A DNA stretch of 64,000 nt from Kutzneria buriramensis (GTDB lineage: Bacteria > Actinomycetota > Actinomycetes > Mycobacteriales > Pseudonocardiaceae), in the NCBI RefSeq assembly GCF_003387475.1, contig NZ_QUNO01000009.1, positions 186,001 through 250,000 of the forward strand, given 5' to 3'. The notes under the pieces are model-generated. The model worked only from the letters and a program-made list of their open reading frames with translations, ran no database searches and had not been told where the DNA came from. Of this stretch, positions 54,303 to 63,385 are shown piece after piece (position 1 is the stretch's first letter; each line of letters begins with the position of its first letter). The position numbers and the translations under genes were made by a program.

Positions 54303-54407
54303 GGGACCTTGTCCTCCATGCGCGGCGACCGGATGTCGCCGACAGGACCGCCACGGATGCCGGGAACCGTTGGTTCACAAGGATCTTCGTTGACAATTGA
54401 CGAGTAC

Positions 54408-55034
54408 CTAGGTGACAGGCAGCAGTCCGCGGCCGATGGCGACGGTGACCGCGGCGGTGCGGTCCGACACCTCAAGCTTGTCGAAGATCCTGACCAGGTG
54501 GCTCTTCACGGTGGTCTCGCTGATGAACAGCGCCCGCCCGATGTCCGGATTGGACAGTCCACGTGCTACACAGCGAAGGACGTCGAGTTCGCGCGCGGTC
54601 AGGGGAACCGGTTCGGGTCGTCGCATGCGGTTGACCAGCCGGGACGCGACGGTCGGCGACAGCACGGTTTCGCCGCGGGCCGTAGCGCGGACGCCGGCGA
54701 CGAGCACGTCGCGCGGGCTGTCCTTGAGCAGGTAGCCAACCGCGCCGGCGGCCACCGCGGCGAGGACGTCGGCGTCGTTGTCGTAGGTGGTGAGCATGAG
54801 AACCTTGGCGTCGGTGGTGGCGACGATGCGTTTCGTCGCCTCCGCACCGCCGAGGTCGGGCATCCGCACGTCCATCAGCACGACATCCGGCGCGAGATCG
54901 CCGGCCACCGCTACGGCATCGGCGCCGCTGCCACAGTCGCCGACCACCTCCAGGTCGGGCTCGGCGGCCAGCAGCGCGCGAACCCCTTCCCGCACAACGG
55001 GATGGTCGTCGACGATCAGCACGGTGATCAACAC
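54408..55034 (-). CDS. NarL/LuxR-type response regulator
   Basis: A 208-residue regulator: receiver domain (1-120) with acidic pair DD at 9-10, phospho-acceptor Asp55 in VVLMDVRMP, and conserved Thr/Lys (LTTYDN, LLKDSP), and a LuxR helix-turn-helix (about 143-205, LTARELDVLRCVARGLSNPDIGRALFISETTVKSHLVRIFDKL). GTG 55034 overlaps the histidine kinase stop, so kinase and regulator are coupled. Divergent from, and possibly controlling, the secreted protease at 56358. Confidence 0.95.
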   Translation of the reverse strand: MLITVLIVDDHPVVREGVRALLAAEPDLEVVGDCGSGADAVAVAGDLAPDVVLMDVRMPDLGGAEATKRIVATTDAKVLMLTTYDNDADVLAAVAAGAVGYLLKDSPRDVLVAGVRATARGETVLSPTVASRLVNRMRRPEPVPLTARELDVLRCVARGLSNPDIGRALFISETTVKSHLVRIFDKLEVSDRTAAVTVAIGRGLLPVT

Positions 55035-56173
55035 GGCAGCTCGACCACGACGGCGGTACCCTCTCCCGGTTCGCTGGTGACGGTGCAGCGGCCGCCGGCC
55101 TCACGGGCTCGCCGCCGTATCCCGTCGAGGCCGAAACCTCCTTCGGCATTGCGGAATCCCCGACCGTCGTCACATACGGAGACCTCCACCCGGTCGTCGT
55201 CCAGCCGCAGGCACACCCGGACCTTCGACGCCTCGGCGTGCTTGCGCACGTTGGCAAGGCACTCCTGCACCGCACGCAGCAGCACCACCTGCGCCGCCGT
55301 TGGCAGCGAACGGGGATCTCCTGCGACCTCGAATTCCGTTGCCACCGCGGCTTCCCGGCCGAATCGGGTCACCACCTCGCGTAGCGCATCGGCCAGCGAG
55401 GCGGCGGCCAGGTCCGGCGGCGTCATCGTGGCCACCAGGCAGCGCGCCTCGGCCAGGTTCCGGCGAGCGGTGACACGCGCCTGCGACAGTCGCAGCCGAG
55501 CCTGTGGGGCGTCGGTGTCGAGGTCCACGTCGGCCGCGTCGAGCAGCAGCAGGATGCTGGTGAACCCCTGGGCGAGGGTGTCGTGGATCTCGCCGGCCAG
55601 CCGCTCCCGTTCCACCAGCGCACCCCGTTCGCGGTTGGCCGCGGCCAGTTCGGCGCGGGTGGCGAGCAGCTCGGCGACGGTCGCGGCCTGGGTGCGGTTG
55701 CGGTCCAGGACCGTGCGTATCCAGGTGGCGATGGCCAGTGCGAGGATCATCCCACCGAGGGCGGCCGCCAGCGACGCGACGACCGAGTTCTCGTTCAGGC
55801 CGAGGTGCCAGACGAAGATCAGAGACACCATGGTCATCGTCAGGGTGGTCGCGGCCATGGCTTGACGGGCCGGCAACAGCGTCCAGACGTGCGGGTACAG
55901 CAGGAGAAGCATGATGGCGCCCAGCGGGGACGCGGTGAACATCAGCACCGTCAGCGGGACGGCGCCGACCAGGTAGCGCACCGCCGCGCCGGTTTCCCTG
56001 GTGCGCAACGCTTCCCGGCCAGTTCGCCGGTACCACCAGTGCAGGGTCGCCAGCACGGCGATCGACGCGAACGGCCCCGCCGTGTCGATCGGCGCCGCTA
56101 TCAGCATGGCCGTCCCCGTCAGCACGGTGAGCGCGTGCTGCACCTGGTCCCACATGGCGCGTCCGGCCGCCAC
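55028..56173 (-). CDS. Sensor histidine kinase, HisKA_3 type
   Basis: A 381-residue membrane kinase. The N-terminal 150 residues contain about five transmembrane segments, followed by a coiled coil (155-190), the dimerisation motif with phospho-acceptor His197 in EIHDTLAQGF, and an HATPase domain with ECLANVRKHA, DDGRGF and FGLDGIRRRA. GTG 56173 follows GGGGAGG. It phosphorylates the response regulator encoded next. The signal is unknown. Confidence 0.94.
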   Translation of the reverse strand: MAAGRAMWDQVQHALTVLTGTAMLIAAPIDTAGPFASIAVLATLHWWYRRTGREALRTRETGAAVRYLVGAVPLTVLMFTASPLGAIMLLLLYPHVWTLLPARQAMAATTLTMTMVSLIFVWHLGLNENSVVASLAAALGGMILALAIATWIRTVLDRNRTQAATVAELLATRAELAAANRERGALVERERLAGEIHDTLAQGFTSILLLLDAADVDLDTDAPQARLRLSQARVTARRNLAEARCLVATMTPPDLAAASLADALREVVTRFGREAAVATEFEVAGDPRSLPTAAQVVLLRAVQECLANVRKHAEASKVRVCLRLDDDRVEVSVCDDGRGFRNAEGGFGLDGIRRRAREAGGRCTVTSEPGEGTAVVVELPC

Positions 56174-56357
56174 TCGACCTCCCCAAGCGATCGATGCCCA
56201 GTATCGACCGGCTCATGGGTCTCGACATCGTCCGACCGGACCGGGTGCGACCGTCCAGTCGGCCGGCACCCGCGACCGTCCGGCCGATGGTGCCGGCGTT
56301 GCCGTTGGCGCGGCGAGGATTCGGATGGTGAAAGCCCTTTCCTCATCGGAGGTGTCC

Positions 56358-57596
56358 ATGCAGCGAAGACTTCGATGGCTCGCGGCCGTGGCGGTTGCCG
56401 CCGCGGCAGTGGCCGTTCCCGTGCAGGCGGCCGCGGCCGGCACGCCGTACTCGGCGCTGCTGAGCCGGCTGAGCCCGTCCGATCAACAGCTGATGCGACA
56501 ACAGGTTCCCCTCGCCGACGCCGGCTCCGCCGTCGACTCCGCGCTGCGCGGGGATCGGGCGCATTACGCCGGCGTGTCGATCTCGCCAGAGAACCGGCAG
56601 GTCGTCCTCTACTGGCACGGGGCGGCGACCCCGGCCATGACGACGGCTGTGCAGCGGGCGAAGAGGGAGCTGGGCGGAGACGGCGAGCTGGTCGTCCGCG
56701 CCGCCCGGTACTCGCAGGCACAGCTCGACGCCGAGGCGAACCGTCTTGTCGGCGGGCGGGTCGACGGCGGCACCGTCGTCGTGGCGGCCGCGCGGCCGGA
56801 CGCCAGCGGCCTCGATCTGACGGTGACGCGGGAGGGCACCGCCAGTTCGCCGGTCGTCAGCGCGGTGGACACGTCGGTGGTCTGGGGCTCCGCGCCGGTG
56901 CCCGATTTCGGCCGGTTCAACGACACCGCCCCGTACAACGGCGGGGCGGCGATCGTCAACGCGTCCGAGGGGTTGGAGTGCTCGTCCGGGTTCACGGTGG
57001 CGAACCCGTTCGGGCAGCGGTTTCTGCTGACCGCCGGACACTGCGGCGTGGTCGGCGCCCAGTGGCAGACGGCCGGTGGTCAGGCGATCGGCACCACTCC
57101 GTTGACGGTGCCGCAGCGTGACGTGGAGCTGGTGTCGACGTCGTCGGCCGAACCGGACATCTACAACGGTGGGCCGGATCCGTCCGGGCAGGGGCTCGGG
57201 GAGTCTTTGCTGGGCATCTCCGGCGCCCGGCGGACGCTGGCCGGGGAGATGATCTGCCAGCTCGGGGCGTTCTCCGGGCCGCGGTGCAACATCCAGATCC
57301 TCAGCCATGCCACCGTCAACATCAACGGCGTGAACATCCAGGAGATCAAGGCCCGGACGCGGGACGGGTCGGAGGGTATCGGGCAGGGCGACAGCGGCGG
57401 TCCCGTCATCACGCTGGGACCACCCGGATTCGTGATCGCGCTGGGGATCAATTCGGCGGAGGACCTCAGTCACGGGGTGGCGTGCGTGGGCGTGCCGATT
57501 GCTGGGCGGCTGTGCAGCACCCAGATGTTCTTCAACGACATCGCGGACATTCAGCCGGCGACGGGGACGGCGGTGGTGATCGCGCCGACGTCGTAG
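56358..57596 (+). CDS. Secreted S1 serine protease with long propeptide
   Basis: A 412-residue precursor: signal peptide (1-27), a propeptide of about 150 residues with alpha-lytic-type elements (VVLYWHGAATPAMTTAVQRAKREL), and a trypsin-fold domain with His228 in LLTAGHCG, probable Asp255 in PQRDVEL, and Ser346 in GQGDSGGPV. Four cysteines flank these motifs. Divergent from the two-component system, which may regulate it. Distinct from the smaller streptogrisin-like enzyme at 22561. Confidence 0.9.
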   Translation: MQRRLRWLAAVAVAAAAVAVPVQAAAAGTPYSALLSRLSPSDQQLMRQQVPLADAGSAVDSALRGDRAHYAGVSISPENRQVVLYWHGAATPAMTTAVQRAKRELGGDGELVVRAARYSQAQLDAEANRLVGGRVDGGTVVVAAARPDASGLDLTVTREGTASSPVVSAVDTSVVWGSAPVPDFGRFNDTAPYNGGAAIVNASEGLECSSGFTVANPFGQRFLLTAGHCGVVGAQWQTAGGQAIGTTPLTVPQRDVELVSTSSAEPDIYNGGPDPSGQGLGESLLGISGARRTLAGEMICQLGAFSGPRCNIQILSHATVNINGVNIQEIKARTRDGSEGIGQGDSGGPVITLGPPGFVIALGINSAEDLSHGVACVGVPIAGRLCSTQMFFNDIADIQPATGTAVVIAPTS

Positions 57597-57597
57597 C

Positions 57598-57621
57598 GGG
57601 GTTGGGGGCTGGGGTTGGGGG
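57598..57621 (+). other. G-quadruplex-type motif after protease stop
   Basis: Four G runs of 4, 5, 4 and 5 bases with two-base loops (TT, CT, TT) begin two bases after the TAG stop. This fits an intramolecular G4 in the 3' untranslated RNA. No function shown. Confidence 0.6.
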
Positions 57622-57660
57622 CCGAGTGGGGGTGGCCTTGCGCTGGTGGGAGGCTTCTGT

Positions 57661-57745
57661 TGACTGCCATAGCCAGTCACTCCCACCGGTCACCTTTGCC
57701 GACCAGTTTCGGGTGACCGCCGTAGCCGGTCACTCCCGCCGGTTA
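57661..57745. repeat. Tandem pair of 32-bp hairpin repeats with compensatory changes
   Basis: Copies at 57661-57692 and 57714-57745 match at 27 of 32 positions, with only transitions. Each opens with a small hairpin: TGACTG/CAGTCA in the first and TGACCG/CGGTCA in the second, so a change in one arm is balanced in the other. Both continue CACTCCC then CCGGT. The rest of this gene-free area up to 57894 shows no gene. Confidence 0.65.
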
Positions 57746-57894
57746 TGGTGGTCCTGGGGTGCTGGTTCGGGGCGGTGCCTCCGTGGAGGTTGTCCGGGGG
57801 CGTCGTGAGGGCGTCTTCCCGTTGTCTCGACTGGCGGCCAGATGTTCCGGGTTTCACTTTGGCGCCTTGACGGAATTCTCGTCGTTGCCTACGC

Positions 57895-58010
57895 GGGGAT
57901 TTTGTGTGGAGCCTCTGGACGACGGCTTTGAGGGGCATCTCCGGGGCAGGCTACGCCTGCCCCTCACGCCGACAAGCTTAAGCCATCGTCCCCCTCCACA
58001 CAAAATCCCC
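57895..58010. repeat. Long-hairpin element, left copy (L)
   Basis: A 116-bp near-palindrome with three nested stems: a perfect 17-bp outer stem (GGGGATTTTGTGTGGAG with 57994-58010), a 12-bp middle stem GGACGACGGCTT/AAGCCATCGTCC with one mismatch, and an inner stem GGGGCAGG/CCTGCCCC at 57943-57963. It matches the reverse complement of the copy at 59736, in inverted orientation around the DUF222 gene. Confidence 0.85.
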
Positions 58011-58069
58011 ACTCAAGCCGTTCGTTGCCGGTCGCGTTGTTCACGGCGGTCGCCGGCGATTATGCATGA

Positions 58070-58099
58070 AACTCGATTCACCCGTTGGTGATTCGAGTT
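58070..58099. promoter_or_regulatory. Inverted repeat at the DUF222 gene promoter
   Basis: AACTCGATTCACC (58070-58082) and GGTGATTCGAGTT (58087-58099) pair with one mismatch over a CGTT loop. The right arm reaches a possible -35 (TTCGAG, 58092), 18 nt before a -10-like TATTCT (58116-58121), seven bases before the ATG, so the mRNA may be leaderless. Confidence 0.55.
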
Positions 58100-58128
58100 G
58101 GATCTTGTAGGCGAGTATTCTTAGAGGT

Positions 58129-59271
58129 ATGAAACTCACCCGAGAGTTGGAGAGAGCGGAGCCCAGCGGGGCCATGCTCGATCTCCTCGCGGGGCTCGAT
58201 CTGGACGCCCTTTCCGCCGACGAACGGGTCACCGTCACCATTCTCGCCCGCAAGATCAAGGCCTTCGCCGACTACGTGGAGTTGACTGTTCTGCGGGGTG
58301 TCGAGGACACCGCCGAGCTGGCCATGGCCATCACCGAACCCGAGCAGACCGTGGCCCGCCGCAAGGAGTTGACCCAGGACCTGCAGACCCTGCCCCGCCT
58401 GATGAACCAGTTGCGGCAGGGGCGCCTGGACCTGCGCCGGCTCGAAGCGGTCCGCGATCGGGTCCGCAACCTGCCGTCCGTGGCACTCATCGCCGAGGTC
58501 GAAGACACCCTGCTCGACATCGCCCCAGGACTCACCCACTCCCAGTTGAGCCGGCGGACCACCGCCCTGGTCGCGCAAGCCGACCCCACCGGCTACGAAC
58601 AACGCCACCAGAAAGCCAAGTCCGACCGTCGCGTGGAGATCCGGCCACTCCCGGACGGCATGGCCCACCTCACCGCCGTGCTGCCCGCCGTCGACGCCCG
58701 CATGATCCACGACCTGCTCTGCGCCGACGCCAAAGACCTCCCGAAGGACGATCGCACCACCGACCAGAAACGCGCCGATGCCTTCCTGGACCGGTTCCTG
58801 GGCAACGTTGGGAAGCGCGATGTCCAGGTCCACGTCACCATCTCGATGGAGACCCTGATGGGGTTGACCGAAGACCCCGCCCTACTCGACGGCTACGGCC
58901 CCATCTCAGCGGACACGGCTCGCGAACTCGCCATGGACGGCATCTGGCGGGCGATCCTGCTCGACGAACACGACCACGCCGACACCATCGGCAAACACAC
59001 CTACCGCCCCGGCCGCCGCCTCAAAGAACTCGTCGGCGTCCGCGCCGGCAGTGTGTGCTCCGCACCGGGCTGCACCCGACCCATCCAAGAAGGCGACCAC
59101 GTCACCCCCTGGCCAAAAGGCCACACCACACTCCCCAACCTCAAAGGCCTCTGCACCCGCCACCACCACCTCAAACACGACACCCACAAAGCCACCGTCG
59201 ACAACGACGGCACCCTGCACTGGACCACCCCACACGGCCGCACCTACACCACCACACCCCACAACTACTGA
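58129..59271 (+). CDS. DUF222/13E12-family HNH endonuclease-like protein
   Basis: A 380-residue protein. Residues 20-260 are the helical DUF222 domain (DERVTVTILARKIKAFADYVELTVL, RQGRLDLRRLEAVRDRV, LTHSQLSRRTTALVAQ). The C-terminal HNH domain has CSAPGCTRPI, DHVTPWPKG, TTLPNLKGLCTRHHHLKH, with paired zinc cysteines and the catalytic His-Asn-His set intact. This is the family of the mycobacterial REP13E12 repeat proteins. It is enclosed by inverted hairpin elements. The second half uses unusually many C/A-rich codons (CAC, ACC), merging into the C-rich tract beyond. Confidence 0.92.
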   Translation: MKLTRELERAEPSGAMLDLLAGLDLDALSADERVTVTILARKIKAFADYVELTVLRGVEDTAELAMAITEPEQTVARRKELTQDLQTLPRLMNQLRQGRLDLRRLEAVRDRVRNLPSVALIAEVEDTLLDIAPGLTHSQLSRRTTALVAQADPTGYEQRHQKAKSDRRVEIRPLPDGMAHLTAVLPAVDARMIHDLLCADAKDLPKDDRTTDQKRADAFLDRFLGNVGKRDVQVHVTISMETLMGLTEDPALLDGYGPISADTARELAMDGIWRAILLDEHDHADTIGKHTYRPGRRLKELVGVRAGSVCSAPGCTRPIQEGDHVTPWPKGHTTLPNLKGLCTRHHHLKHDTHKATVDNDGTLHWTTPHGRTYTTTPHNY

Positions 59272-59735
59272 CCGGCCCGGCGGCCCAAAGCCCCACACAC
59301 CAGCAAGCCGCCCCCATCGCCCCACCAGACCTCCGCCCCACCGGGCCACAGACCCACACACACCGGCCAGCCACCCCCATCGGGGCCGCCGCCCCCTCGG
59401 ACCAGCCCTATCGCCCCACCGGGGGCCACCACCCCGCCCGACCTCCGCCCAGCCGGACCCCACCCAGCCGGGCTCCAGCCCGCCGGATCTCCGCGCCACC
59501 CAACCTCCGCCCAGCCGGACCCGGCCCGCCGGACCACCGCACCACCGCCCCGCCGGACCACCGCGCCACCGCGCCACCGCCCCGCCAAGCCACCGGCCAG
59601 CCACCCCACCGCCAAACCGGGCCACCCCCCACGACCCCATTCCCACCACCCAACCACCCCAATACCACCCCCACATTCCTTGACAATTCCACAGCGAACC
59701 GAAAATTCGCCAGCACACCACCGGAAACTACCGCC
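59272..59735 (+). other. C-rich, G-poor low-complexity tract
   Basis: A gene-free 464-bp stretch with strong strand asymmetry: long C runs broken by A and CCGG, and degenerate units such as CGCCGGACCACCG and CCCAGCCGGACCC. The open frames here encode only Pro/Thr/His or Gly/Trp repeats and are not called. It joins the DUF222 gene to the right hairpin element. Confidence 0.7.
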
Positions 59736-59859
59736 TCGGGTCGATTTTGTGTGGAGGTGGACGATGGCCTAAGCTTTCCGCGCGAGGGGCAGGCGTAGCC
59801 TGCCCCGGAAAGGCTCCTCGAAGGCCATCGTCCAGAGGCTCCACACCAAATCGACCCGA
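59736..59859. repeat. Long-hairpin element, right copy (R)
   Basis: A 124-bp near-palindrome with a 21-bp outer stem (left arm TCGGGTCGATTTTGTGTGGA onward, one mismatch), a perfect 12-bp middle stem (GGACGATGGCCT/AGGCCATCGTCC) and the same inner stem at 59786-59806. Its reverse complement matches the left copy throughout, including CCTCTGGACGA and AAGCTTA. Outer arms differ from L but still pair. Confidence 0.85.
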
Positions 59860-60299
59860 ACCACGCCACCCTAAAAAGGGCCACACCCTCCCCCAGAACC
59901 ACCCAGAACCCCAGCATCACAAAAACACCGCCACCCTCACCACAAACGCCCAGAAAAACACCACCCAGCCGCCCCCAAATAAACCGCAAATCCAATGCCG
60001 CCACCACACTCAAACCCTCGAACCACACCGCCAACAACGCGCCCCCGGCCCAAAGACCCGTACCCGCCGCCCACACCACCACACGCCGGCCTCGCTCGAA
60101 CCGAAGACAGCAGCCGAGCTGGGGCCTGAGCTCCCCGACCACCCTCCCGTCGTCCGTCACGGACATCGCCGACCCGCTGGACCGCCTCCGCGGACGCCCG
60201 AATGTCCAGAACTGACAACTCGCGCCGTTTTCCTTGACACCACGGGTGATCCAGTCCACGGTTCGGGTCGTTTGTGGACCGAACCCGTGGAGGAAGACC
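59860..60299 (+). other. Gene-free upstream region of the PI-PLC gene
   Basis: About 440 bp without a credible gene. The first half continues the C/A-rich composition seen before the R element. Near the end an imperfect hairpin (CCACGGTTCGGGTC with GACCGAACCCGTGG, 60257-60291) partly covers the GGAGGAAG ribosome binding site of the next gene, which could affect its translation. No clear promoter was identified. Confidence 0.4.
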
Positions 60300-61912: not shown

Positions 61913-63385
61913 ATGCCGTCCCTGTCACGCACCCGCCTCGGCATCGCGGCGGCCCTCGCGGCCGCGATGACCGCCCTGCTCACCGCCGCCCTGCTGACCA
62001 CCGCCGCGCCGAATGCCACCGCGGCCACCAACCTCGTCGCCGATCCCGGCTTCGAATCCGGCCTCACCGGCTGGACCTGCGACGCCGGCACCGCGACCGT
62101 GGTGTCCTCGCCGGTGCACGCCGGCACGAAGGCGCTCTCCGGCACGCCGTCCAGCGCCGCCGACGCCCAGTGCACGCAGACGATCAGCGTCGCTCCGAAC
62201 AGCGCGTACACCCTGACCGCGTTCGTCCAGGGCTCCTACGTCTACCTGGGCGCCACCGGAACCGGCGTCAACGCCAGCACCTGGACCGCGTCCGCGCCGT
62301 CGTACCAACAACTCAGCACCACCTTCACCACCGGCGCGTCGACCACGAGCGTCACGGTGTTCGTGCACGGCTGGTACGGCCAACCCGCCTACTACGCCGA
62401 CGACGTCAGCCTCACCGGCCCGGCCGGCACGCCGCCGACGAGCACCACCGACACCACCACGACGACCACCACGGTCACGCCGCCGCCGAACACCGGCTGG
62501 ACCCACCCGGTCTACCTGATGCCGCTGGACAACAACCCGCCGTCGATCAGCGCCATCGTCGCCGGCTCGGGCGAGAAGGAGTTCAACCTCGCCTTCGTGC
62601 TGGACTCTGGCGGCTGCACGCCGGCGTGGGACGGCAGCAGCACCCAGCTCGTCAGCAACGACACCGCGGTGGCCGGGCAGATCAACGCCATTCGCGCGGC
62701 CGGCGGCGACGCGGCCGTCTCCTTCGGCGGCTACAACGGCACCGAGCTCGGCACCACCTGCGGCAGCGCGGCCGCACTGGCCGCCGCCTACCAGCAAGTG
62801 ATCACCAAGTACCAGCTCAAGCACGTCGACTTCGACTACGAGAACGGCGCTCTGGACGCCAACACCGCCGTCCGCTTCGGGGCCATCGCCACCCTGGAGC
62901 GCAACAATCCGAACCTGGTGGTGTCGCTGACGATTCCGATGACCACCGTCGGCTTCCCGGGCAGCGGCACGGACGAGATCCGCGCCGCGGTCGCCGCCGG
63001 CGCGCGGCTGGACATCGTCAACATCATGGACTTCGACACCGGCCTCACCAGCGGCACCGAGGTGGCGCAGACCGAGAACATCGCCACCACAGCGGCCTCG
63101 CAGCTGGCCTCCATCTACGGCTGGAGCACCGCCACCGCGTGGGCGCACCTGGGCCTCCAGCTGATGAACGGGCACAGCGACCAGCCCAGCGAGCTGTTCA
63201 CCCAGGACACCTTCACCCAGCTGCTGTCCTTCGCGCAGGCGAACCATCCCGCCTGGTTCTCCTACTGGTCGGTCAACCGGGACTTCCAGTGCCCGGCGGG
63301 CGTGCCCGAGAACTGGGCGCCCGGCACCTGCAGCAACATCACGCAGGCCGCCTACGACTTCACCAAGATCATCGTTCGGTACTGA
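61913..63385 (+). CDS. Secreted GH18 chitinase with N-terminal carbohydrate-binding module
   Basis: A 490-residue secreted protein from ATG 61913 (GGAGGG upstream). Signal peptide to about residue 38; a CBM4/9- or CBM16-like beta sandwich (40-178, NLVADPGFESGLTGWTCDAG); a Thr-rich linker (TTDTTTTTTTV); and a GH18 barrel (200-490) with the catalytic DxDxE, Asp306-Asp308-Glu310 in HVDFDYENG, and AAVSFGGYNG as the SxGG strand. Predicted to hydrolyse chitin. It precedes a second GH18 gene by 18 bp, so both are likely co-transcribed. Confidence 0.9.
   Translation: MPSLSRTRLGIAAALAAAMTALLTAALLTTAAPNATAATNLVADPGFESGLTGWTCDAGTATVVSSPVHAGTKALSGTPSSAADAQCTQTISVAPNSAYTLTAFVQGSYVYLGATGTGVNASTWTASAPSYQQLSTTFTTGASTTSVTVFVHGWYGQPAYYADDVSLTGPAGTPPTSTTDTTTTTTTVTPPPNTGWTHPVYLMPLDNNPPSISAIVAGSGEKEFNLAFVLDSGGCTPAWDGSSTQLVSNDTAVAGQINAIRAAGGDAAVSFGGYNGTELGTTCGSAAALAAAYQQVITKYQLKHVDFDYENGALDANTAVRFGAIATLERNNPNLVVSLTIPMTTVGFPGSGTDEIRAAVAAGARLDIVNIMDFDTGLTSGTEVAQTENIATTAASQLASIYGWSTATAWAHLGLQLMNGHSDQPSELFTQDTFTQLLSFAQANHPAWFSYWSVNRDFQCPAGVPENWAPGTCSNITQAAYDFTKIIVRY

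Follow-up and report, generated by a model that had tools for sequence, protein, structure and literature searches.

A hairpin-ended DUF222-HNH unit as a multicopy element of Kutzneria with mirror-image strand skew on its flanks

Overall, our analysis of a window of the Kutzneria buriramensis genome (the whole stretch of 64,000 nucleotides) revealed a DUF222-HNH gene enclosed by two inverted copies of a single 110-bp hairpin. This unit forms a multicopy element in Kutzneria, in which hairpin and gene are linked, and mirror-image strand skew marks both of its flanks. We propose, at a little short of an even chance, that the unit is a selfish hairpin-ended element whose ParB/Noc-like and HNH protein causes recurrent breaks at the hairpins, which would be repaired by copying between copies.

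The hairpin pair and the enclosed gene

The left hairpin occupies positions 57898-58007 on the forward strand; in the window sequence, read directly, the arm GATTTTGTGTGGAG begins at 57898 and its complement CTCCACACAAAATC closes at 58007, with outer pairing to about 57893-58012. The right hairpin (59743-59852, reverse strand) is the left copy inverted, and its paired bases run on beyond the core to about 59736-59859. The preliminary description had reported inverted hairpins around one intact DUF222/HNH gene, and this arrangement was confirmed with coordinates shifted by a few bases. As single-stranded DNA, the left hairpin folded at -39.5 kcal/mol compared with -18.4 ± 2.8 kcal/mol for its shuffles, and the right at -51.9 compared with -24.4 ± 3.2 kcal/mol; none of 200 shuffles reached the native value in either case. 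Long DNA stems are expected to be fragile.

The pairing of the hairpin is conserved by compensatory change. Pairs were counted in 27 of 93 distinct hairpins, chosen by dissimilarity (119 hairpins in all). In these 27, 96.7% of 944 cells were paired in the three-stem structure, compared with 40-46% when the structure was slid, so the earlier remark on outer arms that pair despite their differing sequence is borne out in these hairpins. The covariation score was 0.173 (0.054 ± 0.007 in shuffles, 0 of 500 reaching it), nine pairs had changes on both sides, and RNAalifold added a fourth, inner stem of covarying pairs. Reverse-complementing the 51 right hairpins of the family shows an asymmetric GGAGCC..CTG bulge on their outward arm, where the left hairpins also have it. 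Mispaired cells comprised 22 A-C and 6 G-T among 1052; the aligned strand thus shows no preference for wobble pairs, as DNA would give. A reading of the hairpins as RNA was therefore unsupported on that strand, and the opposite strand may still fit it.

The only gene between the hairpins (58129-59271, forward strand) encodes a protein of 380 aa that belongs to the DUF222 family, scoring 74.5 bits with PF02720 against a curated cut-off of 24.4. The Pfam HNH model scored 15.5, below its cut-off of 21.4, HNH families of PHROG matched the window protein at about 1e-4, and the protein has the C-terminal HNH nuclease domain of the DUF222/13E12 family. In the HNH region (59056-59181, forward strand), C310, C315, D323, H324, C342, H345-H347, K349 and H350 are near-invariant in 62 copies, and C310, C315, D323, H324, C342, H345 and K349 are invariant in 40 wider relatives. 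Among copies within genomes, pN/pS ranged from 0.14 to 0.51, with the highest value in genome G002, which has two groups; these ratios indicate that the gene is under purifying selection. A -10-like box, TATTCT (58116-58121, forward strand), lies 7 bases before the ATG, is kept in the eight copies printed and may be a leaderless promoter.

An alignment of 15 rows yielded a poor structure model (pLDDT 63), and 40 rows raised the pLDDT to 86. The helical domain of residues 44-154 (58258-58590, forward strand) is modelled with a resemblance, of fold only, to the DNA-binding domains of ParB, Noc and Spo0J; the match is only moderate, and the DUF222 part may have a ParB/Noc-like fold. The HNH fold was likened to those of restriction-type TagI and McrA and also to IscB. 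Foldseek returned no match to the PDB at E <= 0.001, and the best hit of a PDB sequence search, a nanoantibody chain at E 0.0087, was judged to be a chance match. Up to E 1, the Pfam matches of the window unit were DUF222, HNH and two unrelated weak matches, with no DDE, HuH, serine or tyrosine recombinase; the HuH Y1 transposase typical of IS200/IS605 and REP-RAYT systems was likewise absent up to E 1. A PADLOC defence scan of three proteins gave no match.

A multicopy family and its relatives

In the genome that contains the window, the arm pattern matched 31 times with at most one mismatch and never when read backwards. The same genome has 17 DUF222 matches. Eight of them form one close subfamily, each with a left hairpin; the nine others had no arm match (at most one mismatch) within 20 kb, in a comparison with this arm pattern alone, from which other hairpin types may differ. 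Among 60 genomes, this one included, the wider arm pattern was found in five of seven Kutzneria genomes versus one of 53 others, the latter with a single two-mismatch match.

We collected 72 loci from five genomes: 70 have the gene or a fragment of it, 68 a left hairpin, 51 a right hairpin and 50 both. Frames of 360-400 aa are present in 62 loci, two of them flawed (L070 is frameshifted and L016 is cut by a contig end), and the unit is 1543-1984 bp long with a single exception of 3112 bp. A gene was missing from two loci: L017 lies at a contig start, and L128 is a remnant. Gene-bearing loci number 16-24 per genome in three Kutzneria species and eight in K. buriramensis.

Linkage between hairpin and gene was assessed with a gene-blind covariance model made from 27 distinct hairpins and run over six genomes, and a hairpin was scored as linked when it fell in a locus with the gene or a fragment, irrespective of distance. 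Among the matches listed, 119 of the 121 strong hairpins (above 110 bits) lay in such loci; of the remaining two, G006:1317808 abuts a DUF222 match and C15:450 lies at a contig start. The check covers these 121 matches; the weaker rows listed are opposite-strand matches, and unlisted matches, all 19 in G004 among them, stand outside the check. Contig C27 stops within a gene copy, and two more DUF222 matches in G006 (1212320 and 4825865) have no hairpin among the matches listed. Hairpins scattered without any DUF222 gene had been named in advance as the observation that would speak against a linked unit. With 120 of the 121 listed strong hairpins beside the gene and the last at a contig end, the hairpins are tied to the DUF222 gene, and we therefore rejected the possibility that they are ordinary intergenic palindromes.

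Individual copies have been altered in several ways. In the genome of the window, the copy at L010:6100-7238 (contig C6) has a frameshift in the HNH region, after which the frame continues to 557 aa, and retains both hairpins. A 1432-bp DDE_5 transposon, which we take to be IS701-like, sits within the right hairpin of L084 (L084:4573-6004, G002) and also beyond the right hairpin in L077 (by 46 bp) and in L078 (by 18 bp), always at CTAA and in copies that are 99.9% identical. At L070:4510-6865 (G002), a 2.3-kb insert with two transposase-like frames splits the right hairpin.

With an alignment of 15 proteins as the query, DUF222 genes turned up at E <= 1e-20 in 13 of 31 further genomes, and related arrangements occur in two other genera. 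Hairpins in other genera were judged by arm comparisons, and an MFE scan was uninformative in GC-rich DNA. G004, a Kutzneria genome without the arm pattern, has at six of 11 loci a complete left hairpin that follows this design in a different sequence, and at three a short piece of it, with no right hairpin at any of the 11. In G034, from another genus, three of six loci are flanked on both sides by inverted copies of an element of ~130 bp, and one has it on the left only. In G014, from a third genus, 17 of 20 loci have a hairpin element upstream, which belongs to either of two types and in one case is only a 49-bp piece; three loci have an inverted downstream element of the second type while the upstream element is of the first, and these are therefore not matched pairs. 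Arm comparison detected no shared element in G013 (two loci) or G008 (one locus), and an initial scan of 31 loci in other genomes showed nothing obvious at most of them. In G012, from another genus of the same family, there are 31 DUF222 matches; many share a 382-aa frame type in which the match stops short of the HNH end.

Exchange between copies, sites and flanking skew

In a tree of 62 proteins, G000, G005 and G006 formed one group each and G002 two, and copies are more alike within a genome than between genomes. The tree and the dN/dS analysis used 62 of the 70 gene loci (360-390 aa), among them L070, with its frameshift near residue 327, and L016, truncated at the contig end. In four genomes (6, 15, 8 and 20 copies), nearby informative sites were more often compatible than shuffled ones, and in each of them 0 of 300 permutations gave a value as low. 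Incompatibility climbed mostly over about 20-200 bp and in G002 went on climbing slowly; the test was run without L016, L102 and three G006 copies, and in G002 with eight copies only. These mosaic patterns indicate that copies exchange short tracts often within each genome. Sites A, B, D and E are shared between genomes; there, protein identity is 51-71% and nucleotide identity 64-74%, although the flanks align at 76-90% DNA identity. Some of these alignments enter the element, and site E has one flank in common. Such sites may represent either independent filling or replaced occupants. In addition, flanks of different copies are recombined between genomes in two cases: L070 (G002) combines the left flank of L016 with the right flank of L009 on one element, and L110 joins flanks from L093 and L094, which would place elements at rearrangement breakpoints or else reflect assembly joins at repeats in a draft genome.

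No target duplication was detected in 50 two-ended units: the longest match between left and right flanks averaged 4.88 bases, compared with 4.76 in a control that paired a flank with another copy's right flank. Beyond about 10-30 common bases on the left, the flanks of copies are unrelated, and on the right they have common 3' tails of varying length. A fixed conserved target of the kind used by homing endonucleases was not found across copy flanks. Near the copy at C20:148k (L014), a host palindrome, AATTACACCGC...GCGGTGTAATT (L014:7543-7600), lies just outside the left hairpin, close to the left edge.

Four element-free sites were compared (A, B, L089 and the window), in a set of genomes with no close strains, and none was cleanly empty. 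In G006, site A (L132) is filled by 4.5 kb of different sequence, and synteny is lost at site B (L133). An intact Peptidase_S66 gene stands in G001 (L210) in place of the L089 element of G005. At the window site, G005 lacks the entire 54406-60194 interval and G006 matches the right side only. This interval is a 5.8-kb block composed of a response regulator, a histidine kinase, a trypsin-like gene and the element, and it is absent from the orthologous place in G005. At site C (L014), a single flank is kept in four genomes, and for L099 a distant flank piece was the only match found. The compared elements sit at synteny breaks or adjoin replaced neighbors, and gain or loss of the element appears to have accompanied gain or loss of neighbors where comparison was possible. 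Ordinary transposition is unsupported, because there are neither target duplications nor clean empty sites at the few sites compared. Of the earlier suggestion that the unit is mobile or domesticated, the repeated, selfish-looking element is supported and its movement is unsupported, for these same reasons.

Strand composition around the element is biased. Within the window, 80-bp windows at G+T >= 0.72 on the forward strand occur only in the left flank (57561-57820; 57561-57660 and 57741-57820). The gene 3' end, 3' region and right flank (59061-60120) are rich in C+A, with windows at G+T <= 0.28 covering 59061-59720 and 59821-60120; only one other such window, 62381-62460, exists elsewhere in the 64 kb. 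When loci were aligned by the gene, the mean G+T was 0.72 just outside the left hairpin and 0.26 outside the right, with a background of 0.497 (SD 0.070). A G+T of at least 0.70 was reached by 57% of 68 left edges versus 0.25% of 7459 background windows, and a G+T of at most 0.30 by 75% of 51 right edges versus 0.47% of background windows. The skew extends through the 3' end of the DUF222-HNH gene. In other genomes, left-edge G+T averaged 0.68 in G014 (16 of 17 loci used) and was weaker in G004 and G034, at 0.62 each; on the right, three G014 loci had values of 0.26-0.35, and G034 was hardly skewed (0.41-0.49). Part of the edge skew is short filler common to copies. Inserted filler as the sole source was ruled out because alignable host DNA is biased as well.

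The bias in host DNA was seen by comparing occupied flanks with unoccupied orthologous ones. On the left, G/T gain was found in nine of nine comparisons (p 1e-3 to 3e-10); on the right, A/C gain was found at p < 0.02 in six of eight and at p 0.05 in one, with none at site B (80:78). These comparisons are not independent, L132 being used four times on each side and L014 four times. Site W showed weak asymmetry (p 0.02 and 0.05). Polarity was taken from seven unoccupied-unoccupied control pairs rather than from an outgroup; their p values were 0.03-0.85, and three pairs with L137 lean the same way as occupied flanks. Occupied-occupied pairs had no asymmetry on the left (p 0.10-1), and on the right they were asymmetric for L100 against L080 and L127. 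On the inward-running strand, the first 250 bp had C>G at 81:30, C>T at 44:16 and A>G at 35:17 (one pair per flank; seven flanks, five sites). The asymmetry vanished by 1-1.5 kb at site A (33:33) and on the left of L089 (32:41). At site C, it was undiminished over 2.5 kb (64:24 at 1-1.5 kb and 49:17 at 1.5-2.5 kb), and at site W it persisted to 4 kb (55:37); some of the asymmetry may thus have a regional and not a local cause. Pooled C>G counts were 208:129 at 1.5-2.5 kb and 49:61 farther out. The excess is mostly C>G and not plain deamination (C>T); to produce the C>G part, uracil excision followed by error-prone synthesis, or a lesion of another kind, would be required.

In yeast, according to the part of PMC6786661 that concerns two-sided 5'-3' resection, C's of the top strand are mutated to the left of a break and G's to the right. 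The flanks of the Kutzneria element show the same left/right order. Because of this match, we infer recurrent breakage at the elements, a proposition that we regard as evenly balanced.

Possible mechanism and biological meaning

We provide a putative mechanism for the maintenance of this family. The DUF222 part, modelled as ParB/Noc-like, would bind the hairpin or palindromic ends, and the HNH domain would cut at the bound ends or nearby; cutting of the hairpins by the element's own nuclease is our best guess. The break would be resected and then repaired from another copy, and such repair would replace divergent or broken copies and homogenize the family. Occasionally, repair could also seed or rearrange copies, with loss of neighboring DNA. 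The 3' single strands exposed during resection would give rise to the mirror-image substitution skew on both sides. The element would act in a homing-like manner without a fixed target, and it most likely serves its own maintenance rather than that of the host. Weighing against this breakage model, the substitution asymmetry is uneven and mostly C>G, the skew also covers the 3' end of the gene, G004 has left hairpins only, the two-ended loci of G014 have mixed types, and the ParB-like match is moderate.

A conventional mobile element, in which DUF222-HNH is a recombinase that excises or copies the unit and the hairpins are terminal inverted repeats, would account for the inverted ends, the sharp left edges followed by unrelated flanks and the many dispersed copies. 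However, we consider it unlikely: the flanks contain no target duplication (4.88 versus 4.76 bases), at the element-free sites compared (A, B, L089 and the window) something else is present or synteny is broken, Pfam up to E 1 detects no DDE, HuH, serine or tyrosine recombinase, and the mosaic copies are unlike the product of copy-out transposition alone. Alternatively, the hairpins may be passive, with palindromes that stall forks or meet host enzymes leading to breaks, skew and recombination while DUF222 has a separate role. The skew pattern requires a break and not this nuclease, and long stems are expected on general grounds to be fragile (compare PMC10164571). Nevertheless, strong hairpins without the gene are almost never found, and the purifying selection on the gene would be needless for a passive palindrome, which makes this reading rather improbable.

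We assign still less probability to an ordinary gene family, in which general homologous recombination would homogenize host duplicates, the hairpins would terminate transcripts leaving the unit and the C-rich 3' regions would act as Rho sites. Transcription outward on either side would indeed yield C/A-rich RNA with a hairpin at its end, and reading the opposite strand turns the 22 A-C cells into G-U pairs. However, no gene is evident that a leftward terminator would serve, the bias extends to alignable host flanks, and the aligned strand lacks a wobble preference. A host-serving nuclease family for defence or genome policing seems very improbable. In its favor, the HNH fold is like those of restriction-type TagI and McrA and of IscB. 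Against it, the PADLOC scan of three proteins gave no match, and the copy number and mosaicism look selfish; our analyses likewise gave no support to the idea in the preliminary description of a nuclease that guards repeat DNA.

The selfish, self-cutting element that we favor can be set beside known systems. Homing endonuclease genes include the HNH type, and the likeness would lie in an HNH nuclease gene that apparently spreads or persists via break-induced copying; in contrast, the Kutzneria unit has no fixed target, brings its own inverted hairpins and occupies up to 24 loci per genome. In REP/BIME palindromes with RAYT and in the ends of IS200/IS605, a nuclease-type protein is tied to terminal or repeated hairpins. 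The Kutzneria unit differs in having no HuH/Y1 match in Pfam, mutually inverted hairpins and a near absence of strong hairpins without the gene. It also differs from the TnpB/IscB transposon nucleases, since its protein reaches the NCBIfam IscB model only at E 0.1 and in only one of three scanned copies. REP13E12 is a repeat class among repetitive DUF222/HNH sequences, as stated in the relevant section of PMC10589994, and the corresponding section of the preprint PMC13061034 describes these repeats as gene-conversion hotspots without a defined function. With the mycobacterial side known from these descriptions, both families have several DUF222 copies per genome and gene conversion between copies, and flanking inverted hairpins or skew go unmentioned in those sections of PMC13061034 and PMC10589994. 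The Kutzneria copies, for their part, are complete and mostly two-ended units. In the open-licence literature, we found no account recognizable as hairpin-flanked DUF222 units or as such skew.

The DUF222 family owes its name to its unknown function, and according to the same section of PMC13061034 its repeats are some of the most recombining loci in a major bacterium. In the Kutzneria copies the ends are defined, the structure is conserved at the DNA level and most genes are full length; the copies also come with a substitution signature, which makes repeated cutting of the element a testable claim. The unit may represent a new selfish class, in which a protein repeatedly cuts the ends of its own family, copying keeps a dispersed family uniform and a mirror-image scar is left in host genes; this broader claim is doubtful, and we place it well short of even. 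If true, bacteria would have a gene-drive-like system that works with no transposase, no guide RNA and no fixed target; it would exist in Kutzneria, probably also in further genera of the same family, and would possibly explain the gene-conversion hotspots at DUF222 repeats elsewhere. It would also constitute a new route by which bacterial selfish elements persist, and local strand skew would become a marker of recurrent breakage that can be read from sequence only.
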